Part shown: piece after piece, positions 16,341 to 64,000 of the stretch | Layout of the letters: each line of letters opens with the position of its first letter | How positions within the stretch are numbered: the first letter of the stretch is position 1 | Made by a program: the position numbers and the translations under genes | Notes under the pieces: generated by a model | What the model was told of the DNA's origin: nothing | Seen by the model: only the letters and a program-made list of their open reading frames with translations | The model's database searches: none | Assembly (NCBI GenBank): GCA_021234155.1 | Contig: JAJEKV010000002.1 | Coordinates: 35,196,128-35,260,127 of the forward strand | DNA length: 64,000 bases | Reading direction: 5' to 3' | From: Isoetes taiwanensis | Taxonomy: Eukaryota; Streptophyta; Lycopodiopsida; Isoetales; Isoetaceae

Positions 16341-16344
16341 CCGC

Positions 16345-22609: not shown

Positions 22610-22612
22610 CAC

Positions 22613-24800: not shown

Positions 24801-24812
24801 GCTCTGATACCA
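24801..24812 (-). other. Primer-binding site of element A (initiator tRNA-Met type)
   Basis: The minus strand reads TGGTATCAGAGC one base after the LTR end (CGTCACA). This complements the 3' end of plant initiator tRNA-Met, the usual primer for minus-strand synthesis in plant LTR elements. Confidence 0.95.
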
Positions 24813-24813
24813 C

Positions 24814-27793: not shown

Positions 27794-27805
27794 TGGTATC
27801 AGAGC
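27794..27805 (+). other. Primer-binding site of element B copy 1
   Basis: TGGTATCAGAGC, one base after LTR1, complementary to initiator tRNA-Met. Confidence 0.95.
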
Positions 27806-32649: not shown

Positions 32650-32659
32650 CACTACAAGA

Positions 32660-33180
32660 GAAAGGTGCCAATAACGTCTAGTATAACGTCAAAAATCTTG
32701 ACACAAATAGATCCCCTTAAACTTCAAAAGTTGTCACAGTTTTGCCACTGTAGCTGACGTGATCATTTGCCACAAAGTTGACGCTCGGGCGTCAAGTGTT
32801 ATGTCAAGGTTGTGGCACATTCAATTGTCACAACACCTGACACAGAGGGGCCTTTTTAACAAAATTGCAACATCATTGCCAAGACGTTAGTGTCAAGATA
32901 GCCAAGAAGTTAGTGTCAAGATAGCGTCAGTAGTTTTGAGGACACTATAACAAATATAGCATCAAAATATCGTCAACTATTCCAACAATATGATGACTCA
33001 ATTGCAACAATTAATTGTACATATAGGGGCAAAATGCCATCAAGGTTGTGACGAGCTAATAACCAACATGGCATATATGTTCCAACAATATTATAACTCA
33101 ATTGCAATAAAGTCGCGGACGAAGCTAATAACTGTGGTGGCATATATATTTCGTCAACTATAAATTAGCTAACATCAAAG
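32660..33180. repeat. CACTA 5' subterminal repeats
   Basis: Multiple copies of a short motif in both orientations: TTGACAC at 32697, TTGTCAC, GTGTCAAG (twice near 32890-32920), TTGTGGCAC, CTGACACAG and AACGTC-type variants. Short clustered subterminal repeats like these bind the regulatory transposase (TNPA) in known CACTA elements. Confidence 0.7.
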
Positions 33181-41332: not shown

Positions 41333-44300
41333 TATGTAGTCCTCTCGATGAAGTTTTACCGACTCACATAATGCATTCATTGGTGAGGATGCAATTAATG
41401 ATACCATCAAAAATTTCTTTCCAACAAATGAACAAGCCAATGGTAGCGAAAACGATGATGGTGCACATGCTAGCAATGTAAATGACAACTCATATAGGGA
41501 AAAGGCAAAGATATCTCCGAGGGATGAGGCAAGCACGCCATTATTCCCAAATGCTCGTGTTTCTCGCCTTGCCACTTGTATACTAATCCTAAATCTCCAA
41601 CACAAATTTGGTTGGAGCAACAATAGCCTCTCGAACTTTTTCAGTAACGTAGGTGTAACTCATTTGAATGTTAAAGTTTATTGTATATATGCTTACTTTC
41701 GTTTTCTATAGTTTACTTGATAAAATCTTGCCAGATGGGCATTGTCTCCCAAAGTCTAGGAGGGAGGCTAGAGAGCTATTATGCTCATTTGGACTCTCGA
41801 GTATATAATGTCGTGCATGCATGTGTTAATGATTGTGTTCTATTTTCGCAATGACTATGCAAATGATCGGGCCTTGTCTAAAATGTGGGGAAGCGCGTTA
41901 TGAGGAAGGTAGAAAGACAAAGGTTCCAAGAAAGGTATTACGGCATATGCCTATAATTCCTCGCCTTCGACATATTTTTCGATCACCAACACTAGCAGAC
42001 TTCATGGATTACCATGCACGACATCGTAGCAGGGATGGAAAAATGAGAACTCCTGCAGACGGGGCCTTATGGAAACATATAGAAGAAAAGTGGCCCATTT
42101 TTGAATTGGAACCCCGCAATATAAGGCTTGGATTAGGGATTGATGGTGTTTGCCCATGGGGGACTCAGTCATCCTCACATAGTGTGTGGCCTGTAGCGGT
42201 TGTAAATTATAATATACCACCATGGATGGCTACAAAACCTAGCCATATTATGTTGACTTTGATCATTCCAGGTATGTATGTGTATCATTTCTTTATCCTT
42301 TGTATTTATTTGATCATTCCAAATATTTATTTATGTAGAGTTTCATTTATACTTTCTATTAAGCATGAAATGGCTATTACAGGAAAATATAAAGTGAAAA
42401 ACATGGATGTCTACTTAGAACCTTTAGTAGAAGAACTTGAAATTTTGTGGAAGGGAGTGCACATGTATGACATCTCTAAAACTCCACACGACTTTACATT
42501 TTATGGGATGCTATGCTTTACTCTTCATGACTATCCAGGTTTTTCTGAAGCTTCAGGTATGATATAGTAGGTATTAGTGCAAAATCTATCAAAGTTCAAT
42601 CATTATTCTAATAGTTTATCGTTATTCTCATTGCAGGTCTACAAACAAGCGGTGCATGTGGATGCCCATCTTGTGGGACTAGCTTAACCTCTTACAGGTC
42701 AAAACATCTGAAAAAGCAAATATATTTGGGGTATAAAAAGTACTTGGCTGATGGCCATTCTGCGCGTGGCTCTGACGACACGCCGAAGCCAAAGAGATGG
42801 ACACCCAAGGATTGGTTGGATGCTTGGCAGGAGAAAAATCCCAATGTGGATTACTTGACTGGGTATAGAGATGTCAATGCAAATCTTCCCCCTGGAATGA
42901 AGAGGTTATCTATTTTTTATAGGTTGGAGTATTGGACTGACTTGGAGTTGGTCCATTTACTTGATCCTATGCACATTTTCAAGAATGTTGCTCATTCCCT
43001 TTGGCAGCATTTAACGGGTGAATGGGAAACATTGGCTGCTAGATTGGATCTGAAAGAGCACAACATAAAAAGAAAATATTGGCCCATTGCGAGAAAAGGC
43101 AAGAAGACTCTAATATGGAAACAAGGTGCATGGGTTCTAGGAAAGAAAGAACAAGTTGAAGTGAATAAGAGGATAGCAAAAGTGTGGACACCAACTGGAT
43201 ATGGGGCTTCTTTGAGAAAGGCGTTTACAAAAAAAGGCAGTCTCACTGGGTTGAAGACGCATGATTGGCACAAGTTTCTTCAGGTACACTTTGATTATTG
43301 TACTCTTATTCCTTGCAATAGATTATTTTGCAACATATGCAATGATATTATATGTACTTTTTAAAAGATATACTTCCTTGTGTGATAGGGGACTTCTTGA
43401 CCCCACAAGTAAGGAGCATTATATTTCGATTAGGAAAATTTGCAAGGTGGGTCTCTTCTAAAGAGATCGATGTGGCCGAAATATCAAAAGTGGAGGAGGA
43501 AGTGATTATACTGCTTTGTGACATTGAAAAGGAGTTTCCCACCGCTTTTTTTGACCTACGTGTACTACTAAACAAATTCTATGCAATTATATTATTTTGT
43601 TTTTAGCAAATATACTATAAGTACAATAAACAATGTACTTAATAAACAGGTACATCTGTTGATACATATTCCAAATGAGATAAGGTTGGCAGGACCTGCC
43701 CCTAGTAGATGGATGTTTTTTCTAGAGCGCTACATGAAGGTGCTTAAAAGTTTTGTTCGTCAAATGGCAAAACCAGAGGGTTGCATGGCTGAAGGCCATC
43801 TTGTACAAGAAACGCTACTTTATCTTAATGATATCACTACCTCGTGCCATCCAGATGGTCCTAAGTTGTGGGAGAAAGAAGAACTCAAGGAGATTACATC
43901 AGAAGTATTACAGGGTAATGGTGTAGAACTAAGTCCGAAAGTGATGACATGCATCTTAGCGGTAAGCACGCGTTTGTTCTTAATAATACCGCAAGTTTAC
44001 AACCATGGAGAGACTTGTATGAAATTGCTAAGGAGGATGCACGTAGAAGGCCAACAGATTTATCAATGGGACAACTGTTCCCATGTCATGGATAATACGT
44101 GGTTGTTGGCTCGTATGGACCGAAGCTAAAGATTGTGGTCAAGTTATTCCGTGATGATGATTACGAGCTTGCTCTTGGTTGCATTAGAAAGGTATTATAA
44201 ATCTTTGACCCAAAGTTTCATTTTCTTTATACTATATTACTCATCATTACTATCAATTTGTTTTAGGCACGATTTTATACTTCAATGTGGGCATACGGGC

Positions 44301-45885: not shown

Positions 45886-46990
45886 TATGAAGGACAAGGA
45901 CAAAGGCAGGGTGGCAACAGCCAACCTTAAAGGAGCATCACGCATCTGGTGGAAGGGTTATGCCAAGGCCCATGGCTTAAGCAGAGACGGGTGCAGATTC
46001 AAAAAGTTTGCTAAAGCTTTCAAGCGCCATTACATCCCAAGGGAACACAAGTCCAACATGATGCAGCAGTTCTACAGGTTGCAGCAAGGGTACAAAACAA
46101 TCCAGAAATACACCGAGGAATTCATGAGACTAAGGCTTTATGTGCCGAAGTTGAGGGAAAAGCACGCAGTGGAGAGCTATATTGAAGGATTGAACGAAGA
46201 GATCCGTAAGCTTGTAAGGGCAATAGACCCCAAGACGGTATCAGAAGCAGAATACAAGGCAATAAGCTTGTAAGGAACGGGGCCTCAGAACAGCGGGCAG
46301 AAGCAGCAATATTACCAGGATAGAGGCAAGGCAACAGGGAGTTATAGCCCGAGAGCACCGAGTCCAATTTTAAATCCCCATATAGTGGCAAACTGGGGAA
46401 GCAAGCAGAGAGGAAGCGGTGTGTCCTTCAAGGACAAGCAGAAGGGTCGAACTACTAAAAGCAAAGACGGCCTTTTTTACGTGCAATACCTAAAAAAAAG
46501 AGGCAGGAGTGCATCGAAAAGCAACTCTGATTCGGATGCTTCCAACCGGGCCATAGGACAGCAAACTGCCCGTTCGTCATGAACGCGGCGTCAGCAGAAT
46601 GGGTGGATGGGAGACTCCCTCGACGACGACTCGGGCAGGGAGGCCCACGACTTCATACGGTGGTGAGTGCCACATCTTTGCCGCAATAGATACGTAACAG
46701 CCGAGAAGCAAGATCAAGTAATATCCACAGTAGGAAAGGCCAACTCCAAGTCATTTGTAATCCTGATAGACTCTGGAAGTAGCCACAATTTTGCGTCCCC
46801 AAAGATGGTCGAAATATTGTAGTTGAAACCATTGAAGTCAAAGCCGAGACCTGAGGGCTGGCAAACAGGGGAATAAGGCACACAGCCGGCAAGAGGATAA
46901 AATTCGACATTGACTTGCCGGGAATCAACATCCCCATGGGAGCCGAGGTGATGAACATTGGAAAGTACGACTTAATTATCTAAGATGGAG
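45886..46990 (+). pseudogene. Gag C-terminal part, zinc knuckle and protease of element B, copy 1
   Basis: Continues gag after the CACTA insertion: GRVATANLKGASRIWWKGYA, FMRLRLYVPKLREKHAVESY, IRKLVRAIDPKTVSEAE, then TAA at 46271. A zinc-knuckle remnant near 46540 (GCFQPGHRTANC) and an aspartic protease motif near 46730 (SFVILIDSGSSHNFAS, DSG intact) follow in other frames. Gag packages the RNA and the protease matures Gag-Pol. Confidence 0.85.
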
Positions 46991-47165
46991 TACCTCTACC
47001 AAAGAGAGGGAGCCATCATTGATTGTGGAAAGCGGAAGGTGACCCTCACGGCACCCAATGGAAAGATCATAGAAATCATGTGTAAGGAAGTCGTGCCTAT
47101 TATGCAATGTATGTCTAGTGGCGCCGCTCAAGAGCATAAGGAGCTTAACAGTAGCCTATATCTTC

Positions 47166-48640
47166 AAGCTACAGTTGGAGGAGCCTGAGTTAGAAGAAAG
47201 TGTGGAAGATAAGGTGCTCAACAAGCTACCCGAACAGATAGCTAAGTTGGTAAAAGAGTTCCATGATCTCTTTCCGGATGAGATCAAAAAGCTTCCTCCT
47301 TACAGGGGAGTCGAGTGTGAGATAGCACTCGAACCAGGGACGAAACCAACAAGCAAAGCGCCGTACAAGATGACGACGCAAGAACTAATAGAGCTGAAGA
47401 AGCAATTGCAGGAGTTGCTTGACCTAGGCTTCATCAAACCTAGTGTCTCACCATTTGGAGCACCTATCTTGTTCGTAAAGAAGAAAGATGGTAGCTTGAG
47501 GATGTGCATAGATTACAGGCAGTTAAACAAGCACACCATCAAGAACAAGTATGCGCTCCCAAGATCGGACGATCTGATGGATCAACTCCAAGGTGCAAAG
47601 GTATTCTCCAAGATCGACCTGAGGTCAGGATACCATCAAATCAGGATCAAAGAAGAAGACGTCCACAAGACTGCATTTAGAACCCAATATGGGCATTACG
47701 AGTTCACCGTGATGTCGTTCGGATTGTCGAATGCCCCAGCAACGTTCATGAGACTCATGGACGACATCTTCAGGGAGTTCATAGATGCATTCATCATAGT
47801 ATTCTTTGACGACATCTTAGTATACAGTAAAACCCTAGAAGAACATGTACAACACCTAAGAAAAGTGCTGGAGAAGCTCAGAAGGCACAAGTTGTACGCG
47901 AAGTTGTCAAAGTGTCACTTCGCCACGGAGAGGGTAGACTACCTGGGGCATGTGATCTCAGCGGAGGGGATTTCGACAGACCCTGCCAAGATCAAAGCAG
48001 TGATACAATGGCCGGCACCAAAGAACGTCCATGAGGTCAGAAGCTTTCTCGGCCTAGCAGGGTACTATAGGAAGTTCGTAAAGAACTTTGCAAAGATAGC
48101 AGCCCCGCTAACAGATTTGACAAGGGCAGAGAAGGTGAAAGATTGGGCAGAGCACTGGCGGAAGAAAGCCCAAGCGGGATTCGACTTGTTGAAAGAAGCG
48201 TTGACAACCGCCCCCGTCTTAACCTTGCCAGACCCCGAGAAAGATAAGCTCGTAGCAACAGATGCAAGCAAAATTGCTACAAGTGCAGTGTTGATGCAGG
48301 AAGAGCGAGTGGTAGCATATGATTCGCGAAAGATGAACGACGCCGAAACACGCTACCCGACCCATGACCAGGAGCTACTTGCAGTTGTCAGGGCGCTACA
48401 CTGATTTGGAGGCACTATCTGTTAGGAAGGAAGTTCCAACTTGACACAGATCATCAGAGTCTCCAATACGTCTTCACGCAACCACACCTCAACCTGAGGC
48501 AAAGAAGGTGGATGGAGTTCCTCGAGGAATATGACTTCGACATAGTCTATAAACTGGGGAAGCTCAATGTGGTAGCAGATGCACTTTCAAGGCACCTCCT
48601 GACAACAAGAGTCCATTGCAACGCAATATCCACGCTCACC
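47166..48640 (+). pseudogene. Reverse transcriptase and RNase H of element B, copy 1
   Basis: A 428-codon frame holds the whole [97 protein letters not shown] and the catalytic [12 protein letters not shown], intact here. RNase H begins [18 protein letters not shown] and runs through [11 protein letters not shown] shift at 48403 breaks it, and HQSLQYVFTQPHLNLRQRR with LNVVADALSRHLL continues in another frame. It is the best-preserved enzyme of this copy. Confidence 0.92.
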
Positions 48641-48779
48641 AGCGACTTCGGAAGAAAGATTGAGGAAATCTTGCCATCAGATATAGATTTCAAGGAAGTA
48701 TGGGCGAAGCGGTGTAAAGGAGCAAGGATGATAAGGAGAGGGAAACCTTCAAGAACTTCAAGAAAGAAGGTAACCTCTT

Positions 48780-49800
48780 ATACCACAAGAATAAGTTGTG
48801 TGTGCCGGAGTCATCAGAAGTGAGGAAATTGATTATGCATGATACCCACAACAGCCCAATAGCTGGCCATGCAGGATTCATGAAGACTTACTTCAAAATC
48901 CGAAGCAATTATTATTGGCCAGGCATGAAGAAGCAGATTGCTCGATACATCAAGGAGTGCCAGTTATGTCAACAAACATAGGCAGAGCAACTTCGAGTTC
49001 CAGGAGCATTAGAACCATTAGCGGTGCCAAACGCTAAGTGGGCGGTCATCAGCATGGACTTCATAACAGGGCTTCCAAGGACAGTCAGAGGGAAGGATGC
49101 CTTGTCGAAGATGACACACTTTGTACCATGCAAGACCACAAACACAGCTCTGGATACAGCAAAGCTCTTCACCAAAGAGATCTACAGAGACCCGAAGTTT
49201 ATGAGTGCCTTTTGGCAAGATCTATTCACGACAATAATTCATTTAAGGCCGTTTATGAGCATCGCCTATCATCCGTAGACGGATGGGCAAACGGAACGGA
49301 CCAACGAATTTTGGAAGACATGCTACTAAACTATGTCCGGAACAAGGTGGTATGTGGGAAGAGTTTATTCACTTGGTGGAGTTAAGATAAAGCACCAAGC
49401 GGGGAATCATCCCAAATGTCGCCGCTCATGATCAACTACGGCTACCAATGCCTAACCCGCACACTTGGCACAATCCAAGATCAAAAGTAGAGGTTTCGCA
49501 AAGACATGTTGTCCGACATGCAAAAGCTGGTAGAAGAGGTTCGAGGATATCTTTCGCAAAGAAGGAGTCGATTAAAAGAGCATCGCTGACAAGCAATCAA
49601 CAAAGGAGAGTTTGAAGTCGACGACAACATTTGGCTAAAGATCAAGGTAAAGCAGGCAAAGCTTCGCATCGGAAATTGCAAGAAACTTGCTCCAAGGTGG
49701 GCGGGTCCCTTCAGAATAGACAAGAGAGTAGGTAATCAATCCTACAAGTTGGATCTACCAGCACACCTAAAGATTCATAAAGTCTTCCACGTGAGTCTGT
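48780..49800 (+). pseudogene. Integrase of element B, copy 1 (deleted core)
   Basis: Zinc-binding domain: IMHDTHNSPIAGHAGF, YYWPGMKKQIARYIKECQLC, then a TAG at 48979. The core starts VISMDFITGLPRTVRGKDAL (first catalytic Asp). The normal segment holding the second catalytic Asp is gone: KEIYR joins directly to DPKFMSAFWQDLF, a deletion of about a dozen codons. The YHP block then shows a stop (TAG, 49277), and the GQTERTNQ block reads altered. More frames continue to about 49800 (LDLPAHLKIHKVFHVSLL). Integration activity is lost. Confidence 0.85.
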
Positions 49801-49855
49801 TAAAGAAGCATACTCCAAACCCCGAAGAAGTCTTGGTACACCAACCTTGTTATAA

Positions 49856-50068
49856 ATGATAGAAGAGCAGCTAGAGATAGTCCCAGACTTGATCCTTGAT
49901 AAAGCAATCAAGAAAACAAGGAAGTCAGAGTTTCTCCAATACTTGGTCAAGTGGACACACTTGCCAGTGGAAGACGCGACGTGGGTACTTAAGCACGACC
50001 TCATAAGGCAGTACCCAGAATTCATGAAGCAATGGGACGGCAAGATCATCTCCGAAGAAATCGACTAA
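49856..50068 (+). pseudogene. Chromodomain of element B, copy 1
   Basis: A 70-codon frame at the end of pol reads EEQLEIVPDLILDKAI, then SEFLQYLVKWTHLPVEDATW and VLKHDLIRQYPEFM. L-V-K-W and A-T-W-V are the beta-strand and aromatic-cage region of a chromodomain, as in chromovirus integrases that bind methylated H3. The frame is intact, but it is severed from integrase by upstream breaks. Confidence 0.85.
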
Positions 50069-50168
50069 GGCATGTCGTTCGATGTGTAGATTAATTGAAG
50101 TTTTAAATAAGATTAATCTACGCATGCAACCTATGCTAGGTATGGGTTGCATGCGTTGTTACAGATGA

Positions 50169-50778
50169 TGAAAAGAATCTATAGAGGTGAGTACTCTAAT
50201 TCTAATGGAGATGAATCAACAATTTGATTCTAAACTACAAAGACAAGTTTATTTGTGATGCACACACATAATTTTCTTTGTTCAATCAATGCTTCTCAAT
50301 ATTGTATATTAAACCATTGGACAAAATATCTTAAGCTTTGTGCATTGTCTCCGAGAACCCAAGCTCCTTGCACATAGATAAACTCGTCTTCACCTTCAAT
50401 CCGCACCCCAGCTCAACCAACACAATGGCATTACACCTCTTTTATATCCATTCCGTCGGTGCAGGTCAGAGTAGCAGGTCGGCAAGGCGTGATCTTCGGC
50501 CCTTCTATTTTTTCTCACCGTCAAGCAATTATCCCACATTCATATCTGCAGTTTCGTGACCAACCAAACAATATCCCACATTCACTTTGACATTTAAAAG
50601 CTCACGAACCATTGAAGGTAATATTTGAGCATATAATTTGTGCTCCTACTTGACCATTGAAGAACTTGCAATTACCCCTTAAGGATAACCTTCAATCTGC
50701 ATCTCTAGTTCATGTGGATCAAATCTAACTAACCCCTGGAACCAGTTTCATCATACAGTATAACATGTAACATTTACA
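50169..50778 (-). repeat. 3' LTR of the copia element
   Basis: 610 bp, nearly identical to 55119-55735. Differences include a 3-nt and a 4-nt gap and about five substitutions seen by eye. Confidence 0.95.
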
Positions 50779-50829
50779 TTCCCCCTTCATGTTATATCTG
50801 TATGTTGAACTAATCTTCTGAGTTCTGCA

Positions 50830-51500
50830 AATCTTCCTTCAGCTTAGCACTTTCGTTAGTATATCTGCAAGTTGCATTCTAGTGTTCACATAGGTCAATT
50901 TTGCTAGACCTTTACTGACTGCTTCTCTTATAAAATGCAGTTCTAACTCAATGTGCTTGGATCTCTCGTGCAAAACTGGATCCTTAGACATTGCTATGCA
51001 GCTTGTACTGTCACAGTACAATACAGTAGCTTCAGGCTGTGGAAAACCAAATTCTGTTAGCAATCTTCTCTCCCAAATTAACTCTCTTACACACAAAGTG
51101 GCAGCTGCATATTCTGCTTCAACACTTGATAGAGCAATTGAACTTTGCTTTTTACACTTCCATGCAATTGGTCCACCACCTAGAATCATTAAATAACCAG
51201 ATGTGGACTTCCTAGTGTCCATGCAACCTCCCCAATCTGCATTACAATATGAACTTAGGATCATGTCATTTGTGCAGTAAGTTATTCCTACATCCATGGT
51301 GCCCTTGAGATATCCGAGTACCCTCTTTGCTGCACTCCAATGACCTCGTCCTGGATCATTATTATACCTGCTTAAAATGTTAACAATGTGTGATATGTCT
51401 GGCCTTGTACAGTTGGCAACATAAGACAGACATCCTATCAATGATCTGTAAGGTGTGTCAATCATTTCTTCTCTTTCAATGTCATCCTTAGGACACATAT
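50830..51500 (-). pseudogene. Copia RNase H domain (out of frame with pol)
   Basis: A minus-strand frame gives MCPKDDIEREEMIDTPYRSL, SYVANCTRPDISHIVNILSR, YCNADWGGCMDTRKSTSGYL, ALSSVEAEYAAATLCVRELI and SKHIELELHFIREAVSKGL, the standard copia RNase H. A frame change in 51500-51540 detaches it from RT. Confidence 0.92.
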
Positions 51501-51535
51501 GCTCTGAGATTTTATACCACGTACAAAGAAAGGTT

Positions 51536-54484
51536 TTACAAACTGTTGCATTGCTCCATCTTAAATTTCTTTAACATGCTCTCAATTTGACCCCTTTGAG
51601 TAAGCACTATAGTTTTATTTGCTCGATTCCTTTTCACTTCAACACCTAAGAATTTCTGCAATTCTCCAAGATCTGTCATTTTAAATCTTCTATTCAGAAT
51701 GTTCTTGCACTGATCTAAACATTGTTTTCCTTTTGCTATCATAATGTTGTCATCAACATAAAGTGCAATAATGCACCATTCACTTCCTGCCACAAGTTTA
51801 TAGATGTTTCCATCATTTTTGAATTTACTAAACCCTTGCTCAATCAGATAAGAGTCCATGCATTTATACCACTCTCGAGGGGATTGCTTGAGCCCATAAA
51901 CTGCTCTTTTTAATTTCCATACTTTATCTTTCCCTTCTTCAAAACCAGGAGGCTGTCTCATATATATTTCTTCTTCAAGTTTAGCATTCAAAAAAGCAGT
52001 ATTAACATCCATGTGATGTATCTCAAGGTCACAAGCATTAGCTATGGACAACAACATTCTAATACTGTTCATTTTGACAAGTGGTGAGAAAGTCTCCTCA
52101 TAATCCTGACCCTTCTTTTGTGAAAAACCTTGAGCAACCAACCTGGCCTTATATTTTGGAGTTTTTCCATCGGGGCAGTTTTCAAGTTTAAATAGCCACT
52201 TGTTCCCCACTATGTTTTGCCCTTCTGATATATCTACTAATTCAAAAGTCTCTGTTCTTTTGAATGATGCTAACTCATCATTCATTGCTTTTAGCCACTC
52301 AGCCTTGTCAGCTTTAGTCAGAGCCTCATTATAGGTCTTGGGTACATTAGTATCCAAATGCATTAAGATTTCAAACAAATCATGAATCTCACCTTCATTC
52401 TCGTGAAGTCTTTTACTCCTCCCAAGTTCATCTCGTCCATAATGAGTTGTATCTATCTGCAAGCCTCCCTGCAACTTTTGAACTTCAGTTTGTCTCTTTT
52501 TCCTTGTAGGCTTGGTACTTATAACCTCCTCATCTTGAACTGACATAGCATTATCCTTACCTGCATCATTATCCAGGTTAGCAATATTTTTAAATTGCAT
52601 GTCTTCTTCTGCTTCAGATTCTGTGTCAGAATCAAAATATTTAGCCTGCTCCTGCTCCTTCTCTTGAATAATCTTGGCTTCATCACTAGCTTTTTCTGCT
52701 GTAACCTCAGATGATTTGCATTCCAGATCTGCATCTTGTACATTCACCTTTGGTATAACCTTATAGAATTGGTCTTCATCAAATATAACATCTCGACTTA
52801 TTACTATTCTCCTTTTTTGTGGATCATACAGCCTATAAGCCTTTGATTGATTATCATAACCAACCATGTAAGTTATTAGTGACTTGTCATCAAGTTTTTT
52901 TCTGAGTTCATCAGGTATGTGCACAAAAGTTAAGCATCCATATGCCTTCAGATTTTCATACTGAGGTATCTTTCCAGACCACAGCATTTCTGGGATTGTT
53001 CCTTGTGAGGCTAATGATGGCAACATATTTTGAACATGAACAGCAGCTCTAACAGCTTCATCCCAAAGAAAATTGGGTAATCCTGAAAATTTTAGCATAC
53101 TTCTGACTGCATTTAAGATTGTTCTATTCTTTCTTTCTGCAATTCCATTTTGTTGAGGAGAGTACCTGCATGTAAGTTGCCTTTTGATTCCTCTCTTCCT
53201 ACAATAGAGTTTGAATTCATCTGATATGAACTCTCCCCCTCTATTTGACCTCAAACACTTGATTTTTCTCCCTGTTTCAGTTTCAACTTCATTAACAAAC
53301 TGTTTGAAGATTTCCAGAGCTGCATCTTTTGTCTTAATACAATAGACAAATGTCTTCCTGCTGAAATCATCAATAAGTGTCATGAAATATCGTTTACCTG
53401 ATAAGCTTGTCACATTAAGTGGCCCACATAGATCTGTGTGGATCAGATCTAATAGTCCTTTGGCTCTTTTGAGAGATTTTTTAAAAGGTAGTCTGCAATG
53501 CTTTCCCAATATGCACCCTGCACATTTTAGTTCTTCAGCCTCTTTGCTAACATTAATCATTCCCTTTTTTTTCAACAGTTCAATGGCTCTGGAATTCACA
53601 TGACACATTCTATGATGCCATTTTTTAAAGGTTGGATGTCTAACAAAATTAATGCTGGCCAGAATGTGACCATTGCATAAACCAAATAAATTGCCAACAC
53701 GTTTTCCCAAGAACATTACTTTATTATTGAGCAAAACTTTACAATGTAACTTCTCAAATAAGACCTTATATCCAAGATCCACTAATTGAGAGACAGAAAT
53801 TAAATTTCTCACTAAGCCAGGCACACAAAGCACATTCTCCAACTGCAACTTTTTCCCTTCTAAGTCAAACAACTCTAACACTCCTACATCTTCAATTTCT
53901 TGAAGCTCTCCATTTCCTAATTGAACATGTCCTCCTTTTCTTCCTCTGCAACTTTTAAGCATATTTGGATTTGCAGCTACTGTTTTTTCAGCTCCAGAAT
54001 CTATTATCATAACATCATTATCAATGTTATTTCTAACAATAGAATGCATTTCAGGGAGACTTACCTCTGCATCTTCATCAAGCTCATCTTCTTCACTTTG
54101 TTTGTCTTCAGTAAGATTAATCGTGGGGTTCTTCCTTGGTGCTCCTCTCCTGCTGTCATATCCCTTTTTAAAACCAGAACTTTTATCCTTGCCTTTGCCT
54201 TTTGTATTTTTCGGGCTTGGGCAGCTTGAAGCCATATGGCCCTTGCCTTCACAATTGTAACATATTATCTCTCTTCCAGTCCTTGGGCAGTCAGCCTTAA
54301 GATGGCCATAACTATCACAATTATAGCATGGCCCTATCTTCCTTTTTTCTTTGTTCTTCTTATATTTTCCAGTGTACAATACCTCTGCATTCTCATCATC
54401 ATCCTCATGAAATTTACTCTGCTCAAATTCAGTTCTTACCATCCTAATTGCATGCTCCTTCGATTTTGCGACATTCCTTAACAA
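51536..54484 (-). pseudogene. Copia Gag C-terminus, protease, integrase, reverse transcriptase
   Basis: One open minus-strand frame of 982 codons. It has two zinc knuckles (CYNCDSYGHLKADC and CYNCEGKGHMASSC), a protease (DVMIIDSGAEKTV), integrase zinc motif (HHRMCHVNS ... CAGCILGKH) and core (LIHTDLCGPLNV, KCLRSNRGGEFISDE, NGIAERKNRTI). The RT follows (YKARLVAQGFSQKKGQDYEE, MDVNTAFLNAKLEEEIY, LYVDDNIMIAKG). The second integrase Asp is Asn (RSNRGGEF in place of RSDxGGE), which should abolish strand transfer. RT catalytic YVDD is intact. A stop follows MEQCNSL. Confidence 0.95.
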
Positions 54485-55091
54485 GGTAGCAAGATGAGTG
54501 TTGTGTGATATTGCTCGAGATATGGCCAGTAATTGATATTCTTCATTGAGAATAACTCCAGCACCTTCTAAGTCTGCTATAATGGAATCAAACTTCTCAA
54601 AAAACTCAGTTACATTATCTTTTTCATGCAGTTTTCACCTTCTCAACTGCTTCTCCAACACATCTATCTGAGAGGATGTTTTGGCCTCATATTCTTTAAT
54701 TAAATACATCCACTTCCCTTGGAGTCATACCCCTCAACTTCAATTTAATCACAGATCCTACCTTGCAACTGATGATTGCTTGTGCTTCCATGATTTTCAG
54801 CTTTTCCTCCTCTCCACTTGCTGTTACAATGGAGGGACGAGCAGGTGCACTTTCAGCAGTTGCCCTTAGAGTAGAGCCTTCAGCACTTGAGCTGGCACTA
54901 GTTCCCCCTTGACTAGTTGTCCCTGCACTCACAGTTATAGGAGGGCTTCCAGAAGCATTAGGATCAACTAAATACCACAGTTTTTCAAATTCCAATACTT
55001 CTCTGATACTTTGCTTCCAGATTTGAAAGCCACCATCTCCTTTGAATACCTCTATAGAATTCAGCAGATTTGCACCAAATCTGGTAGCCAT
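54485..55091 (-). pseudogene. Copia Gag N-terminal part (two breaks)
   Basis: Starts at ATG 55091 (MATRFGANLLNSIEVFKGDG, FQIWKQSIREVLEFEKLWYL), has a Ser/Thr/Ala-rich insert, then LKLRGMTPREVDVFN and a TAA from a shift near 54700. The frame continues with IKEYEAKTSSQIDVLEKQL, a TGA near 54635, and KLHEKDNVTEFFEKFD before the pol frame. Matches the UBN2-type copia gag. Confidence 0.9.
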
Positions 55092-55105
55092 TGTACTTCA
55101 ACCTG

Positions 55106-55117
55106 GCTCTGATACCA
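55106..55117 (-). other. Primer-binding site of the copia element
   Basis: TGGTATCAGAGC on the minus strand, one base from the LTR end, initiator tRNA-Met type. Confidence 0.95.
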
Positions 55118-55118
55118 A

Positions 55119-55735
55119 TGAAAAGAATCTATAGAGGTGAGTACTCTAATTCTAATGGAGATGAATCAACAATTTGATTCTAAACTACAAAGACAAGTTT
55201 ATTTGTGATGCACACACATAATTTTCTTTGTTCAATCAATGCTTCTCAATATTGTATATTAAACCATTGGACAAAATATCTTAAGCTTTGTGCATTGTCT
55301 CCGAGAACCCAAGCTCCTTGCACATAGATAAACTCGTCTTCACCTTCAATCCGGCACCCAGCTCAACCAACACAATGGCATTACACCTCTTTTATATCCA
55401 TTCCGTCGGTGCAGGTCAGAGTAGCAGGTCGGCAAGGCGTGATCTTCGGCCCTTCTATTTTTTCTCACCGTCAAGCAATTATCCCACATTCATATCTGCA
55501 GTTTCGTGACCAACCAAACAATATCCCACATTCACTTTGACATTTGAAAGCTCACGAACCATTGAAGGTAATATTTGAGCATATAATTTGTGCTCCTACT
55601 TGACCATTGAAGAACTTGCAATTACCCCCTAAGGATAACCTTCAATCTGCATCTCTAGTTCATGTGAAGGATCAAATCTAACTAACCCCTGGAACCAGTT
55701 TCAGCATACAGTATAACATGACCTTAACATTTACA
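55119..55735 (-). repeat. 5' LTR of the copia element
   Basis: 617 bp partner of 50169-50778. Confidence 0.95.
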
Positions 55736-56547: not shown

Positions 56548-59500
56548 TGTGACGTTCCAGTGCGATATACGGTCTCAAGACGTATACCGTACTGCACCGT
56601 CACGCGTACACGCCATTCCAATTGACGACGTGTAGCCAAGCAAGTGGCGCCCTAGGGGGCAACTTGCAAGGGTGCGCACACTTATTAATGTGCGCACTTT
56701 AGACCATTAACCTTTAAGAGGCATACCAAGGGTCGTGGAAACCCTAACCCTAACTGATAGCCTATGTAAGGCAACCAAACCCTAACTTTTCCCTTTTCGT
56801 CCACAGTCATTCCGAACTCCGTTTCGCGCGTTTCAAGAGTCAATCCCGACTGCCAAGATCTGCCTGAGCGCCCCAGCTCGTCAGACTTCCTTTCCGACCG
56901 CATCTCCAAGCAAGACAGTGACATGGACGCATTCGGATCAAGAGGAGCAAGCCAAGGACCAGGTATTTCGTCAATTCAATAGCCTAATCCGCCTTCCGGG
57001 CATAGAATTAGCATGTTTAGCCTATTGAATTGCCCATAACAGCCACATAGAACCCCAGATAGCGAGCCCTGACTAAAGAACATAACTTCTATGATGTAGA
57101 TTAGATATTATTCTTTAGTTCTATAATGATGTGATGGATGGATGATCTCTGTGGACTTATTGTATTGGGAAGGGGGGTAGAGACCTACAGCTTAGTAGTT
57201 GATGCTCCTAGTTAGTCCCTTTAGTGCATTACTAGTATTCGGCCTGTGCATAAGAACCAAACCTGGTTGTGGGTGGCGGGACCAGACTGGCTTACAAGGA
57301 AGCTCATGTCCTGATTCATGAACTGTCCCTCTGGTAGTAAGGCCTATCGGGGACTTCAGCGCACTAGATCTAATGCACTGCCACTGCGTGCGGGCTGTTG
57401 CATGGGTTCGACACTCTTGGGGTGGTGTACACCTTCCATGGAGTTCAGTCGAGTAAGGGCAGTGGCCCTCTAGTCGCCTTGAGTCAGCATGCTAGCTTCT
57501 GGTGGGAGTACTCCCTACCTGCCCCATCGGAACTGGGGAGATGCAACCCAGGAATAGCCCCTTTGGCTATGCCTCCGGCGGGCTACAATCCAGTCCCAAG
57601 ACTTATCAACCTACTCTGCAAAGTGTGCAAACCATCATTCAATTAAATTGGGATTATGTCTGGTCCAAAGTCGCGCCGAATAGGCTTATTATAGGCCATT
57701 TTAGCTATATAACCATGTGTTGAATTTGATGAAACTTGTAAAATACGATGGAATTTAACCTAAAAATTTTATGTTTTGGCAACATAAAAACCTAAAAAAT
57801 TGCATATTTTAAACACAATTATCCGCAACCGCGAAATTTGTAGAGTAAAATAACAAGTATATTTGAATAACTAACTGCAAGCAAGTCCTTATTTTCGAAA
57901 TGAAAATCGCGCCTGGCGTGATTTTGTGGACATAAACATACTACATTTATGCAGATTCAACTCAAATATTTATACAAACAATAAAATTTATGTCCTACAA
58001 AATGGTCAAAACAGACGATTTTACAAACGTGAAGAGTCTTTATAATGCTCCCCGATGCGATTTTATCCCCGCCCAAAATACTTAAAATGTCCTACAAAAT
58101 AGTTAAAAAAAACAGTTTTTAGAGAAAAAATAATAACAAAAACATCCTACAAAACAGTTAAAAGAACAACTTTTATGGAAAAAGTAAATACAAAATCTGG
58201 CTGGCGATTTAACAAGGACAATCACTCTTAAATGTCCTTAAAAATGTCCAAAAATGACAAAAATAAGGAATAGGCTAACCTCAAATCGCGCCAGGCGCGT
58301 TTTCATTTTCACTTTTTTTTTGATTTTTTTTATTTTTTTATTTTTTTTTTTTTTTTCCAGTCTGGCACTCACCTCAAATCGCGCCAAGCGCGATTTCAAC
58401 TATGGGCTCTTCACAAAACCCTGCAACATCACGAAATTGAGCAAATTTTAATCCGCAACATCACGAAATTGAGCAAATTTCCGCTTTGATCTTGAAATTA
58501 GCGGTTTGTAACACTTCAAAGTAGGTCGGATTTGACAGGTTAGATCATGCCCAATCCCAAAGCCCCTTCAATAATTGTGATTTTGAGCATTTTTGGGCTG
58601 ATTCAACATCAGAATTTGTATTGCGACAAGCAACCGTGGAATCAAGTCAAAATTACAAGGGCTTCTCTCAAACAATCACGGACTATTACCATCCTACCGA
58701 GTCTACCTAGCAATAATGTGAGTAATATCTAGAAGAGATAGATATTGGTAGTATACCTAGCAGTATCCAGAAGAGATAACGGGCTGTGCTCCAAGTGCTT
58801 CATCCACCAGTGTTCCATCCGCCAGTGCTCCAAGCGCTCCACCTGTTACAGTTCGATTTGGAAAAGCTCGATGGAAAACCCTGTGGAAAAGATCGATGTG
58901 GAAAGCCTGTGGAAAACCTACCCGATATGGTAAAAGAGGCGTGGACCTCTTTGTTGAGAAACGAAGAAACACAAAATAAAAAACTGAAGGCGGAGCAACT
59001 AAAAGCGAAGAGGGAGTAAAAGAAAAGGGACGGGCGGGAATTTAGAGGAGGGAAAAAAATAAGGAGAGGGAGCAAAAGAATAGGAGACGAAAAAAAGGGG
59101 GGAAAACGGACGGGCGGGAATCTGAAATTTGAAAATTGAAAACGAAAACAAGAAAGGCGGATGGAGAGAAAAAACAAAAAAAAAGGCGGACGGGGAATAA
59201 AAAACAAAAAAAACGCGGACGGAAAAAAGTACCAAAATTAAGACATATTCTCAATTTTTTTGAATGATGGTTTGCACAGGAGGGGCGGATGGAGCGGACT
59301 ACCCAACTGTCATGTTCCCTTGCCAGCCAACTCCACTGTTATTGCACTCTGTCTGCTTGACCTCTGGAGACCCAAGCTTGTCAGTCCAACCCTGAGTCTG
59401 ATCCGGGGTAGAACTCCCTTATGTGATGTACTGATCTTTGTCTATGCAGATTATGTAGTGAGCCACCCTTCGTGGTGGTTATATGTTATTGATGTATGTG

Positions 59501-59701
59501 CTACTGACGTGTATATATTGCGCTTCCGCAGCTAGGTAGGCCCTGAGGGAGACAGGGTAAATGACCCCTTCATTCTTCCCACTGGAACATTCCATGGTTG
59601 CAGTGTTACGTGGAGGGCCCTATATTAGCATGGAGCTGGTATGGGGGATGAACTCCTGTTTGTATACGGTGGTGCACCGTATATGAGTAGGGGACGTCAC
59701 A
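56548..59701 (+). repeat. LTR2 of element B: 3' LTR of copy 1 and 5' LTR of copy 2
   Basis: TGTGACGTTCCAG ... GGGGACGTCACA, preceded by a polypurine tract and followed by a primer-binding site, so a single LTR serves two adjacent internal regions. About 1.5 kb once the 1643-bp insertion at 57630-59272 is removed. Confidence 0.95.
57630..59272. mobile_element. 1.6-kb non-autonomous TIR element inside LTR2
   Basis: The ends are AACCATCATTCAA and TTGAATGATGGTT (13 bp perfect, similarity extending to about 30 bp with gaps of mismatch). TGCA is present on both sides (57626-57629 and 59273-59276), and LTR1 has a single TGCA at that place. It has no transposase. Inside are several ATCGCGCC(A/T)GGCGCG-type palindromes, long T runs near 58311-58357 and a purine-rich tract 58980-59220. 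The superfamily is uncertain. Confidence 0.85.
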
Positions 59702-59702
59702 G

Positions 59703-59714
59703 TGGTATCAGAGC
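59703..59714 (+). other. Primer-binding site of element B copy 2
   Basis: TGGTATCAGAGC after LTR2. Confidence 0.95.
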
Positions 59715-59904
59715 TATGTTCTTGGAGACCAAGAGCAAAGCACTGACCATGCTCCCAGTAGTACTAACTTGATAGGATCCTCAAACCTCGAAAAATGGGA
59801 AAAAATTTTCTCATTTTTGTAGTAAATGCTAAGCTAGTAATAGTTAAGAGAATCGGAACATAAAAAGATTAAAAATAGTGAGCCGAATCCTTCTAAAGCA
59901 AGAA

Positions 59905-60186
59905 GGTCTCACACGTCACGCCAGGACTAAAACCAAAACTTCAGGTTTTGACCTGGGCGCAATGTGTGAGACATTGGGCCAAAAACACCTTAAAAATTGA
60001 TGATTTTCAGAAAAGTAACATGCTAAATCGAATTTTAAGCTAAGAACTAGCCAGATTGGTATCTTACACTCCTAGAAATATGCCTAGAAATCATACAATT
60101 TAGCATCAAAACCCACCATGTCTCACACGTCGCGCCAGGGCAAAAACCAAGAGTCCAGGTCTTGCCCTGGGCGCAACGTGTGAGAC
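59905..60186 (+). promoter_or_regulatory. Leader hairpins 1 and 2, copy 2
   Basis: Two inverted-repeat units at 59905-59972 and 60120-60186, the same as in copy 1. Unit 2 pairs GTCTCACACGT with ACGTGTGAGAC, then GCGCC with GGGCGC and GGGCAA with TTGCCC, nearly 25 bp of stem. Confidence 0.85.
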
Positions 60187-60287
60187 CAATAGATTAGAAA
60201 GGTCTAAATTAAGCCATGTAATAGGTTAATAAGTGTCTTAGCTCATCCAAAAGGGTAGCTTGCAATTTGACCTAAAAATTGACCATC

Positions 60288-60296
60288 TATAAATAG
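60288..60296 (+). promoter_or_regulatory. TATAAATAG box before H3 ORF, copy 2
   Basis: Lies 115 bp upstream of the ATG at 60403. A C-run just downstream (60304-60314) is longer than in copy 1. Confidence 0.5.
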
Positions 60297-60402
60297 ACCT
60301 AGGACCCCCCCCCCCTCATTTGTACGTCCCTCTTTAGAAAAATCGCTCCCGTTGCTAAGGCGATTTTTGGGCGCCCGACATCGGATCGACGAGCCGTCAA
60401 AC

Positions 60403-61640
60403 ATGGCCAGGACGAAACAAACTGCTAGAGTTCCTCCTGGGGACGCAACTCCCAGCGCCCTACTCCAAGAAATGCTCGGGGAGCGCCTTCTTCACCAAGG
60501 AGGCCATCCTTCATCTAGTGAAGGGACATCGTCCGAGGAGCGTCCCGACAACCCCACCAACCAAGAAGGGGATGAGACAGAGGTCGAAGGGGAAGCACAC
60601 TCCGATGCGGGGACAGAAGTCCTCGACAACAAGGAAGGAGACGTGATGCACAAGGTCTTCGAAGAAATGGAGGAGGAAAGGAGACAGAAGGAGGAGCAAG
60701 ATCGGGTGGCCGAGCAAAATGAAGAACAGAGGGAGCCGACGCTCGAGCCAGTCGAAAAAGAAGAACTCGCAAGAGACATGAAGCCAAAGAACGCCGTCGA
60801 GATAAGAGAGCAGAAAAGAAGAGGAAGAGGGAAGAGGCGGAGGCCAAGGCAGCCGAGGAGCTGAAGAAGAAGAAAGGGAAGTTCGTGGAGGTAGACAAAA
60901 GGAAACTCAAGAAAGCCCCACGAGCAACGGTAGTTATTGAGGAACGGCCGCCCGACAGACCTCCTTCGTCGGACGAATCGGATGACGAAGATTTTAACCC
61001 TCACAATAAGGAGGCAGGCTCTTCCAAGCCCCCAGTCGCAGACCCCGAGCCCGAAGTGCAGGCACCCCCGCCATATCCGACGTGGGATAGAAGAAGAAGA
61101 AGAAGAAGAGATTTTAACGTCACGCCGCGGCCAGCCCGAGAGGCGTATGTGATAGACCCCGTCAAAGTCTATCAGAGGAAGCTAAGGGAGCACAACGCCT
61201 TCATGACGAAGTGGGAGGCCTACAACTCCTACTACCAAGAGAACAAGGTAACGTTTGTTGAAGGTGGAGTACCATCCAAGAAGAAGACGCTCAGGCCACC
61301 ACTAGAGAAGCCCAAGCCTCCTAGACCACCAGCCAAAAAGAGAGCGGGCAGAAAGGAGAGCGAGAGAAAAGCACTACGGGAAATTAGGCATTTTCAGCGC
61401 AATTTCGGCTTCCTAATCCCCCGTGCACCGTTCGCCCGATTAGTTAGGGAAGTGATGCAGGAGTTTAACACCGGGATGAGGGTAACAGACGAAATGTTGC
61501 TGGCGTTACAGGAAGCGGCCGAGCAAAAGATAGTGCAGCACTTCGAAGATTCTACAGCCTGCACAGTACATGCTAAACGAGTCACGCTAATGAAGAAAGA
61601 CATGGATCTCGCCAGTTATATTAAGGGAGAATGCCAGTAA
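60403..61640 (+). pseudogene. Retrotransposon histone H3 ORF: H3 tail mimic, charged linker, H3 fold (one frameshift)
   Basis: The first ATG of this region is 60403. The product begins MARTKQTARVPPGDATPS: residues 1-9 equal histone H3, then Lys9 becomes Val. A Ser/Glu-rich acidic part follows (GTSSEERPDNPTNQEGDETE), then a coiled-coil-like helix (EEMEEERRQKEEQDRVAEQ) and, near 60768, a 10-nt deletion relative to copy 1 that shifts the frame. The downstream frame resumes with KRKLKKAPRATVVIEE, SSDESDDEDF, a Pro-rich segment and a basic PPAKKRAGRKESERKALREI. The last ~90 codons (61365-61637) are an H3 histone fold: [72 protein letters not shown]. By hand about half of the residues match plant H3, including the Cys/His/Arg/Asp/Leu set of the H3-H3 interface, with no loop-1 insertion of the CENH3 kind. 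The product would be nuclear. Chromatin incorporation is inferred. Confidence 0.92.
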
Positions 61641-61783
61641 AATTTTGTACATGATAGGAATTTTTGTTAATACAAAGTGTTTTTGAGTAAATTACATGTG
61701 TAAATATACTTAATTGAGTTGAATTAGCGAATAATGGCTTTTGTCTTAGTTAAATCGGACATCGTAGAGCAATTAAGGCAGAT

Positions 61784-62050
61784 GTCTCACACATCGCGCC
61801 AGGAGCAAAACCAAGACTCCAGGTTTTGAGCTGGGCGCAACGTGTGCGACCATGACCAAATTAGACCAAAACACCTCCAAATCGATCAAGTAAGGGGTCA
61901 ATTCTGCCTAACTCGATGAGTCTAGCATGATTAGACCCTTAGATAACCCAAATTAGACACGTTTTGACCAAGATAGAGAAGATGTCTCACACTTCGCGCC
62001 AGGAGCAAAACCAAGACTCCAGATTTCGAGCTGGGCGCAACGTGTGAGGC
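61784..62050 (+). promoter_or_regulatory. Hairpins 3 and 4, copy 2, before ORF2
   Basis: Units at 61784-61850 (one arm change, GTGTGCGACC) and 61984-62050, the same design and positions as in copy 1. Confidence 0.85.
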
Positions 62051-62241
62051 CTCCTAGCAATTTCTCCACCATGCCATATCCAATTGACCTCCAGTTTGTT
62101 GCAATAGGTTCATTAGTAGTCCCAGTACGCTCAAACCTCCAAAGTAACCTTCAAATCCCCAGTTGGACCTCCTAATAGGTCAGAATTGCCCAACCCCAAT
62201 AAATTTCTAGGTCACCCAAAAATTAGGGTTTTTCCCTTGTC

Positions 62242-62250
62242 TATAAATAG
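62242..62250 (+). promoter_or_regulatory. TATAAATAG box before ORF2, copy 2
   Basis: Lies 121 bp upstream of the ORF2 ATG. Confidence 0.5.
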
Positions 62251-62362
62251 GCCCCCATTTCTCACTTGACACCCTACAAGTTTGCTCTCGACCCTTTAGG
62301 CGAATTCCTAGCTCCCAGAGGCGCTTCTCCATCCGTTTGTTAGTTCCATCTTCCCTAGAGCA

Positions 62363-63892
62363 ATGGCAACTACTGACTTCAGGCGATGGTACAGCGCCAG
62401 TGCCCATGCAGCTGAGACCAATGTCAATACCATCTTTCAACTTTTCCAAAAAGAGATTGATGTCCAAGCAACTCTACATGCAACGCCAGCATATAGGCAA
62501 GTTTTAACTGAGTTCCAAGCTAGGGTAGGACAGTCCCTAGTGCAGCTTCCCCCTTGTACAGGCTATTTTGTCCCCTGCCCATCCCTTCAAGCAGCCTTGG
62601 GTGATGTTCCGAACATTGCCAAGTACTTGACCAACAAGGCCCAGAGGCTGCCAGATTACATGGTCCTGACAGTTGACAGGACCAAGTATTTTTCCTACAC
62701 CGCCGCCTTAGCGATCTTCCTTTCCCACCGTGCTGAAAACCCAATGGGGGAAACCTCTATCCCTCCCATGGAGGTGGACCACATAGCATCCTCAGCAGCA
62801 GACCAGCTCCTTTTACAATACCAGCAGGAGCAGGAAGGAAGAACAGAAGAAGAGGAACCGGAAGATGAAGAGTACGTGGAGCTCGACCCAACAGAAGAAC
62901 AGCGGCTAGTGGAAGAAGAGTTACCCAACTTCGAGCGAAGCCGGCAGACCCTCAGAGTCGCTCCCCCACTCGGGCTTGGTATCACAAGCCTAGCCCCCAT
63001 CATCATTGACGACGAGGAGTACCTGCTCCTCAGTGACATCCATAACCTCCCTGAATGCAGGGAGAGAGAGTTTCGACTCGAGGAGTTGCTGCACCAACTG
63101 CGGCAGCAACCAGACCTAGATGATTTCATCGTCCGGGGAGTCTCAGATTTCCCGCTTCAAGTGAGAGAAGCCGACACCTATACAGGAGAGTCGACTTCGG
63201 ACCTCCAAGCCTACAACAACATCAGGCAAATAATGGAAGCTCGGGAACTGCCATCTGAGGAGGAGTTCTATGCCATCCAAGAACGGATGGGGATCCGTGG
63301 CAAGACCACGAGCATTTTGATGCCGAGCTCTTCGATACCAGCTCCCACAGACAGAAGAGGAGGAATCGACATCAGGCGAGTTTCATCGACAATCAGGGAT
63401 TACAGAGAAATCACTGAGGTAGAGGTCGATGAATACGCCGGAAGACATAGAGCTGGCAGCCGAGGGGGCGACGAGTCATCAACGACGCACAATGACAGGT
63501 CGCTGAGGTACTATCTTCCCCTGCTGCTGGATGGGAGAATAGCGGTAATACACCGCAAATTCAGCCCCAGGGGCGAAGAAAGAGTGTTTATGCTCATCGC
63601 ACTCTCTGGCTTTGGCATGCATGCTCGACTGGCTGCAAACATCGACTATGCCGTCTTAGTCAAGAGAGCGATGGCATTGGACATCTTCGACTTCGCTGTG
63701 CCCTACCGACGGCAGGGAAGATTAGCAGTAACCACGGCCCACACCTCCAACCACAGAGTAGAGGAATTGGTGATAGCCTTACAGGGCGGGACATCAACCA
63801 ACATCCTCAGGAACTTGGGACGCTCGGTAGGAACGGCTCAAGTTAAGAAATTTCTCAAAGATAACCCATCCTACCGGCGATTTCAAGAATAG
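62363..63892 (+). CDS. Accessory ORF2 of element B, intact, unknown function
   Basis: 509 codons from ATG 62363 to TAG. N-terminal helical part (RRWYSASAHAAETNVNTIFQ, AQRLPDYMVLTVDRTKYFSY), acidic middle (EEEEPEDEEYVELDPTEEQR), a second ordered part (GITSLAPIIIDDEEYLLLSD, DLDDFIVRGVSDFPLQ, YAIQERMGIRGKTTSI), a basic/acidic linker (EVEVDEYAGRHRAGSRGG) and a helical C-terminus (FMLIALSGFGMHARLAANID, ILRNLGRSVGTAQVKKFL). No signal peptide or membrane helix. It is not a gag core or a pol enzyme, and gag begins downstream. A related ORF is in element A at the same place, so it is a conserved component. I do not recognise a family. Given its neighbour, a histone-binding or particle role are possibilities, not claims. 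Confidence 0.8.
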   Translation: MATTDFRRWYSASAHAAETNVNTIFQLFQKEIDVQATLHATPAYRQVLTEFQARVGQSLVQLPPCTGYFVPCPSLQAALGDVPNIAKYLTNKAQRLPDYMVLTVDRTKYFSYTAALAIFLSHRAENPMGETSIPPMEVDHIASSAADQLLLQYQQEQEGRTEEEEPEDEEYVELDPTEEQRLVEEELPNFERSRQTLRVAPPLGLGITSLAPIIIDDEEYLLLSDIHNLPECREREFRLEELLHQLRQQPDLDDFIVRGVSDFPLQVREADTYTGESTSDLQAYNNIRQIMEARELPSEEEFYAIQERMGIRGKTTSILMPSSSIPAPTDRRGGIDIRRVSSTIRDYREITEVEVDEYAGRHRAGSRGGDESSTTHNDRSLRYYLPLLLDGRIAVIHRKFSPRGEERVFMLIALSGFGMHARLAANIDYAVLVKRAMALDIFDFAVPYRRQGRLAVTTAHTSNHRVEELVIALQGGTSTNILRNLGRSVGTAQVKKFLKDNPSYRRFQE

Positions 63893-64000
63893 TTAGATTC
63901 TTAATCCCGGTAGCATTGTAATTGAGATATTACATAATAAATATATTTTGTTGCCAATATTAAAATGTTTTGTTGATTGTATTTGGTTCCAAAACTATAT
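63893..64000 (+). other. Spacer between ORF2 and gag, copy 2
   Basis: Contains ACATAATAAATATATTTTG, a possible polyadenylation-type context shared with copy 1 (near 32000), then the window ends. Confidence 0.4.

Follow-up and report, generated by a model that had tools for sequence, protein, structure and literature searches.

Can an LTR retrotransposon carry a histone of its own and, if so, what would the histone do for the element? The question arose from a sequence-only reading of a 64,000-nucleotide stretch of the Isoetes taiwanensis genome (the whole stretch analysed, called here the window), in which the end of an open reading frame lying between a primer-binding site (PBS) and ORF2/gag was read as a histone H3 fold. 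The forward strand of the window holds two copies of the element in question, which we call the A type, with the following features.

26308-27792, forward strand: 5′ LTR of A-type copy 1, with ends TGTGACG...CGTCACA
27794-27805, forward strand: PBS TGGTATCAGAGC of copy 1
28567-29706, forward strand: ORF1 (H3) of copy 1, by tblastn 78% identical to the ORF1 of genomic copy L009
30433-31961, forward strand: ORF2 of copy 1, in broken frames, located by tblastn with the ORF2 of copy 2
45887-50065, forward strand: gag, RT, RNase H, INT and chromodomain region of copy 1, located by tblastn
56548-59701, forward strand: LTR common to copies 1 and 2, holding an insert of about 1.6 kb
59703-59714, forward strand: PBS TGGTATCAGAGC of copy 2
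60403-61640, forward strand: ORF1 of copy 2, in two frames, with H3 tip, long charged insert and H3 fold
60403-60429, forward strand: H3 N-terminal tip M-ARTKQTAR of copy 2 ORF1
61371-61637, forward strand: H3 histone fold of copy 2, alpha-N to alpha-3, placed by Pfam, PDB sequences, a predicted model and Foldseek
62363-63892, forward strand: ORF2 of copy 2, 509 aa, without a Pfam match

These features form a tandem array (26308-64000) of the order LTR-internal-LTR-internal, in which one LTR serves both copies. In self-BLAST comparisons, 26308-27362 matched 56548-57629 at 94.2% identity. The shared LTR, marked by self-BLAST blocks at 56548-57629 and 59270-64000, has a polypurine tract on its 5′ side and a PBS on its 3′ side. 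The TG...CA ends of the LTR, the PBS and the polypurine tract are thus all present, as in an LTR retrotransposon. We take TGGTATCAGAGC to be the initiator-tRNA-Met PBS of plant LTR elements. The LTR and PBS are succeeded on one strand by ORF1, ORF2, gag, PR, RT, RNase H and INT, in this order (from gag on, as seen in genomic copy L021). With the PBS at 59703 and ORF2 downstream at 62363-63892, ORF1 lies where the sequence-only reading had put it, and on the element's strand.

In copy 1, tblastn matched gag at 45887-46527, RT at 47175-48978, INT at 49024-49523 and the chromodomain end at 49728-50065; the start of its gag (32594-32665) is cut off from the rest by an insertion. Within that insertion, ORFs at 41833-44129 resemble a transposase, presumably of the CACTA type. 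A young-looking copia-like element occupies 50168-55735 on the reverse strand (ORFs of 982 aa and 219 aa; direct repeats 98% identical), and ORFs similar to its own follow the A-type pol in L021. By eye, hairpin-like, near-identical units (CTCACACGTCGCGCCAGG...CTGGGCGCAACGTGTGAGAC) flank ORF1 at 59880-60260 and 61755-62060. ORF2 (62363-63892) appears to be a conserved ORF of these elements. A Pfam search with it gave no match, a protein search in which 8000 candidates were scored gave one relative (P0052, 47% identical over 99%), and its predicted model (mean pLDDT 36.6) was too poor for a structure search.

The H3 likeness of the end of ORF1, first read from the order and spacing of its residues, was borne out by profile search. 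Pfam PF00125 (Histone) matched window positions 60885-61637 with an E value of 1.7e-26 (93.3 bits; cut-off 26.4), and the top PDB sequence match of the copy 2 fold was histone H3.3 (E 1.7e-24). An AlphaFold model of ORF1 predicts helices where H3 has alpha-N, 1, 2 and 3, its pLDDT being 66 overall and up to 93 in blocks of the fold. The top Foldseek matches of this model were nucleosome H3 chains (best E 1.5e-6). The local match is clear, but the chain as a whole superposes poorly (rmsd about 12-22 Å, TM by target about 0.5-0.6), and the weight therefore rests on the sequence matches. A chance match as the source of the H3 likeness is ruled out by the profile, sequence and codon evidence.

The other end of ORF1 is also that of an H3: copy 2 ORF1 begins at 60403 with the exact H3 N-terminus, MARTKQTAR, which the sequence-only reading did not contain. 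That reading had taken 60403-61640 as one ORF, whereas a frame break splits it into frames 60403-60864 and 60723-61640. In copies L009 and L011, elsewhere in the genome, ORF1 is open from tip to fold over 416 residues. Since it starts like H3 and ends in an H3 fold, ORF1 is, to judge by its sequence, an H3 with roughly 310 residues inserted between tip and fold. The H3 gene had also been said to recur in copy 1. The gene is indeed there, but with a TAG within the fold and a degraded tip (the best tip match has 4 mismatches). The inference that an H3-like protein is encoded by the element itself is thus upheld.

What kind of element is it? Pfam searches on pieces of copies L021, L023 and L024 found Retrotrans_gag, RVP_2, RVT_1, RT_RNaseH and Integrase_H2C2; the integrase core, rve, was matched in L024 only and below the cut-off (26.6 vs. 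32.6 bits). Gag is followed by PR-RT-RNase H-INT, the order of Ty3/gypsy elements. A chromodomain (PF00385) was found in L024, a copy of the B type described below (E 1.5e-8), and the A-type C-terminal region is homologous to the B-type chromodomain end by tblastn and reading. By gag-pol order and chromodomain, the H3-bearing elements are Ty3/gypsy chromoviruses, as had been proposed. By reading, the INT chromodomain lacks the first and third of the cage aromatics by which chromodomain types are defined in the passages of PMC3350952 and PMC6317226 drawn on here. Plant Ty3/gypsy chromoviruses (Galadriel, Tekay, CRM, Reina and Tcn1) likewise have LTR, PBS, gag, PR, RT, RNase H and INT, and share with the H3-bearing elements a chromodomain of the cage-less type. 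The H3-bearing elements differ from them in two additional ORFs 5′ of gag, the first with the histone H3 domain. The parts of three papers on chromoviruses that we drew on (PMC6317226, PMC3350952 and PMC2864245) make no mention of an H3-type gene.

The reverse strand of the window holds, at 13923-26284, a second H3-bearing chromovirus type, B, in a broken copy that the sequence-only reading did not mention.

24813-26284, reverse strand: 5′ LTR of the B-type element, the other LTR lying at 13923-15705
22907-24096, reverse strand: B-type ORF1, broken, with an MPRFKL-type N-terminal domain, an H3 tail piece and an H3 fold
16150-22612, reverse strand: B-type ORF2, gag, pol and chromodomain region, located by tblastn and ORFs

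The B-type LTRs match in self-BLAST blocks at 97% and 89% identity, and a PBS on the reverse strand runs from 24812. Its ORF1 (24096-22907), found by tblastn with the ORF1 of L050, matches host H3 at 48% over 97 residues (E 1.2e-25). Elsewhere in the genome, type B (L048-L050) combines an unrelated N-terminal domain, a Q-rich linker, a tail piece (for example QRTKHPSTGGK...KPHRYRPGTVALREI) and a near-canonical fold, and another H3-bearing element is present in L024. The N-terminus of type C (L051) looks by eye akin to that of type B, and type D is defined by a third tail pattern (L068, L070 and L071). From type to type the N-terminus changes but the H3 part is retained. None of the B-D copies read has a free ARTK terminus, their H3 tail piece being internal. 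The B-D folds are identical to host H3 at 75-81 of 91 residues (82-89%) in 24 chosen copies, an identity biased upward by drawing the copies from ranks 16-149 of the best histone matches. The pol regions of types A and B (L021 vs. L024) are 78% identical across 594 residues, whereas their ORF2 products show a weak likeness (23%, E 9e-8).

How common is the arrangement? In the genome as searched (1,658,258,908 bases in 1110 contigs), a degenerate pattern for HAKRVT-x-M, which lies at the end of H3 alpha-2 and in loop 2, had 3532 exact matches (its reversed control had none), a count that includes host H3 genes and in which individual matches are unverified. For MARTKQTAR with V as the next residue, the pattern search gave 307 exact matches genome-wide and none in its control. 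Judged by score, canonical-looking H3 genes made up 15 of the best 150 histone matches of 8705 candidates; one, L047, was read. We fetched 40 A copies, namely the 20 best of 151 matches (7 with stops) and 20 picked from those free of stops. The PBS was found 5′ of ORF1 in 29 of the 40, within the stretch examined, and the tip MARTKQTAR was present with up to 3 mismatches in 33 and exactly in 20; ORF2 lay 3′ of ORF1 in 18 of the 20 A copies fetched with longer downstream sequence. A host H3 gene beside or inside an element is ruled out by position and recurrence. The H3 gene is, by the PBS and ORF2 counts, a conserved part of the element family and no one-off insertion, the case that had been named with the sequence-only reading as one that would refute it.

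In the 40 A copies, the fold has a pooled pS of 0.63 and pN of 0.055 (dN/dS about 0.04), and the insert a dN/dS of 0.19; the folds of the 24 B-D copies have a pS of 0.62 and pN of 0.058 (dN/dS 0.046). These ratios are rough because synonymous sites are near saturation, the pairs compared are not independent, and the choice of copies among the best matches, mostly with open frames, pushes dN/dS down and identity up. The contrast between parts of ORF1 within the same copies is less exposed to this sampling bias. In 33 A copies, the tip codons A1-R8 have a pN of 0.064 and pS of 0.647, the seven codons after the tip a pN of 0.352 and pS of 0.476, and the 30 bases 5′ of the ATG, read as codons, a pN of 0.230 and pS of 0.286. 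In the copies sampled, both the H3 tip and the H3 fold are under purifying selection.

Which features of H3 have been kept, and which lost? Residue 9 of the 33 A tips is V in 29 and L, K, R or S once each, so that L038 is the one tip among them to keep K9. None of the 40 A segments (insert and fold, from the frame break onward) contains an ARKS motif, nor does either of two complete open A proteins that were searched for it. The motif occurs in two of the 24 B-D copies, 53 and 60 residues before RPGT, as against 33 and 15 in host H3. The type D copies L068 and L071 have an ARKSG motif further out, while L064 has PRKS and L049 KRKS. In the stretches read of A and B-D copies, ARKS was never found at the spacing of K9 or K27.

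The fold of the A type presents another picture. R69, H113, K115, R116 and M120 are fixed in all 40 copies, R83 and C110 are kept in 39, and R49 and D123 in 38. Changes affect R63, F84 and Q85 (near DNA) as well as L103, and a stable octamer is for this reason not assured in the A type; K56 and K79 are replaced. We assign residues to the DNA-facing, H4-facing and H3-H3′ bundle classes by lists that we assume to hold here. So classed, the A-type contact residues seem mostly kept. With most contacts kept and K9 and K27 gone, the protein looks built for entering nucleosomes yet not for taking the silencing methylations. Leu90, plus His87 in type C, we take to be H3.3-like.

Whether the elements acquired H3 once or twice bears on the history of the family. 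In fold trees of 34 and 31 rows, the B and C folds lie close to host H3 and the A fold on a long branch. A single clade of A and B/C is rejected (p-AU 0.0086 with 30 rows and 0.0035 with 31 rows, two of the four CenH3 rows of the latter being provisional). The A fold comes out on the plant CenH3 side (89/71 with 30 rows, 92/85 with 31), a placement on a long branch that is not firm. It shares with a grass CenH3 (P0019) such stretches as LIPxAPFARLVRE and HAKRVTLM. In contrast, plant CenH3 has a longer loop 1 than H3, whereas the aligned A-type fold has no loop-1 insertion, and the A-type tip is the canonical ARTKQTAR, unlike that of plant CenH3. Among the best 150 of 6497 candidates obtained with a grass CenH3 fragment, a host CenH3 was not found, the matches being swamped by H3 and element folds. 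H3 may have been captured twice, the A fold separately from the B/C folds. Counter to two captures are the same position in the element, the weakly homologous ORF2 and the fact that A and B ORF1 align (46% over 125 residues) starting some 35 residues ahead of the fold.

Searches beyond Isoetes gave a few leads. A protein search with ORF1 (8000 candidates scored) returned at least 48 proteins, each spanning 12-29% of the query; one with the B-type ORF1 N-terminal part returned no relatives; and IMG/VR scans with P0004 and with ORF2 gave no matches. P0004, P0025 and P0026 show an H3 tip or acidic extension, a long insert and the fold, and in P0004 and P0025 the tip-insert-fold plan is that of ORF1; we note them as leads. 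They could be additional H3s carried by elements, or else variant H3s belonging to other organisms.

Among the literature covered, the nearest precedent appears to be that of orchid Ty3/gypsy elements with an ORF for an AlkB m6A demethylase. In the sections of PMC9289625 drawn on here, a host-like domain has become fixed in a gypsy lineage, is kept through replication and likely regulates the element. AlkB, however, is an enzyme acting on RNA, whereas the H3-bearing elements encode a structural histone. Parallels also come from viruses, as far as the passages of PMC9145170 used here go. The bracovirus H4 with its extended N-terminal tail and the single H3s of giant viruses are cases of one core histone per selfish genome, with a near-host fold and likely entry into host nucleosomes, as we propose for ORF1; their carriers are DNA viruses or virus-derived particles, not retroelements. 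Marseillevirus and Medusavirus are mobile genomes whose own histones form viral nucleosomes, but they encode doublets or all four histones, whereas H3 alone was found in the H3-bearing elements.

DNA viruses are known to carry core histones. In the open-licence PMC literature, preprints excluded, we found no report of a histone-encoding retrotransposon, which agrees with the earlier statement that no such element had been described. Neither "retrotransposon" nor "retrovir" occurs in the main text of the review on viral histones (PMC9145170), and "histone" is absent from the main texts of a review on extra ORFs in plant LTR elements (PMC7264820), the I. sinensis genome paper (PMC10541799) and a study of captured ORFs in rotifer LTR elements (PMC5408684). 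According to the portion of the I. taiwanensis genome paper used here, the repeat library was filtered against plant proteins (PMC8566536), and this may be the reason why the H3 elements went unseen.

What would such an H3 do? The reading that we consider best, and put just short of an even chance, is that the element encodes an H3 variant which becomes part of nucleosomes and is refractory to silencing marks. The ORF1 protein would pair with host H4 and be deposited into host nucleosomes; Leu90 and, in the C type, His87 offer the one hint that deposition might be independent of replication. Because the K9 and K27 lysines are missing, nucleosomes containing ORF1 would be unable to take H3K9 or H3K27 methylation, and because the K4 module ARTKQTAR is kept, an A-type nucleosome could still bear an active mark. 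In flowering plants, H3K9me2 and DNA methylation form a silencing loop. The element's own or newly integrated copies might thereby be kept outside this loop in the host. The long element-specific N-terminal part may serve to localise the protein. A fuller version, in which the lineage would be writing its own chromatin, with K4 (in the A type) and the nucleosome faces kept, K9 and K27 shed, and the protein deposited over element DNA to make it silencing-resistant, we hold more tentatively. The missing K9 and K27 could instead reflect relaxed constraint on disused tails. Open copies, L009 included, sit among dead ones, and the two A copies and one B copy of the window are broken.

The functions first suggested for the protein were packaging of the element's DNA, marking of the integration site and blocking of silencing. 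We favour silencing resistance over the other two because K9 and K27 are gone while the K4 tip (in A) and most contacts are kept. A role in targeting or tethering is nevertheless conceivable, if rather unlikely: ORF1 would attach by its N-terminal part to gag or the integration complex, and its H3 domain, within nucleosomes or mimicking them, would direct integration or retention to particular chromatin, with the ARTKQTAR tip acting as bait for H3K4 readers. The tip is under purifying selection of its own while adjoining residues are free to vary, the H3 part persists across types whose N-termini differ, and a further targeting part would be useful because the INT chromodomain has no aromatic cage. 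Yet the B-D copies read have an internal tail piece without a free ARTK terminus, and contact of ORF1 with INT or gag is purely hypothetical. The kept H4 face and tip would also suit a decoy, a protein that stays out of nucleosomes and impairs host silencing in trans by titrating H4, histone chaperones or H3-modifying enzymes. A decoy would have no need of the H3-H3′ bundle and the DNA contacts, which are kept, and we think it improbable.

Packaging, in which ORF1 would coat the element cDNA before integration as an H3-H4-like nucleoprotein, is to us more improbable still. ORF1 comes first among the element's genes and several DNA-facing arginines are kept; against this, H3 stands alone, Pfam having found no other histone in ORF2 or the gag/pol pieces tested, and the H3-H3′ and H4 faces are kept as well, suggesting complete nucleosomes within the nucleus. 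Finally, host H3 might have been captured once and carried unused, or a host gene might have been hit by elements. The window's copies are broken, and capture of host genes by retroelements is known, as described in the parts of PMC7264820 drawn on here. Such a relic is already contradicted in the sample by the dN/dS of 0.04 in the fold, the scarcity of amino-acid changes beside abundant silent ones in the tip, the recurrence of PBS (29/40) and ORF2 (18/20) and the 3532 motif matches, and we regard it as very improbable.

In sum, a large family carrying an H3 under selection suggests that the element manipulates the chromatin of its host. The family would also seem to mark an annotation blind spot in the I. 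taiwanensis repeat library. If entry into nucleosomes is true, the protein would be a naturally occurring H3 that lacks K9 and K27 and is maintained by selection, and a direct tool for asking how far H3K9 methylation is needed in the silencing of plant transposons. It would also exemplify histone mimicry, practised by an element residing permanently in the chromatin it would alter.
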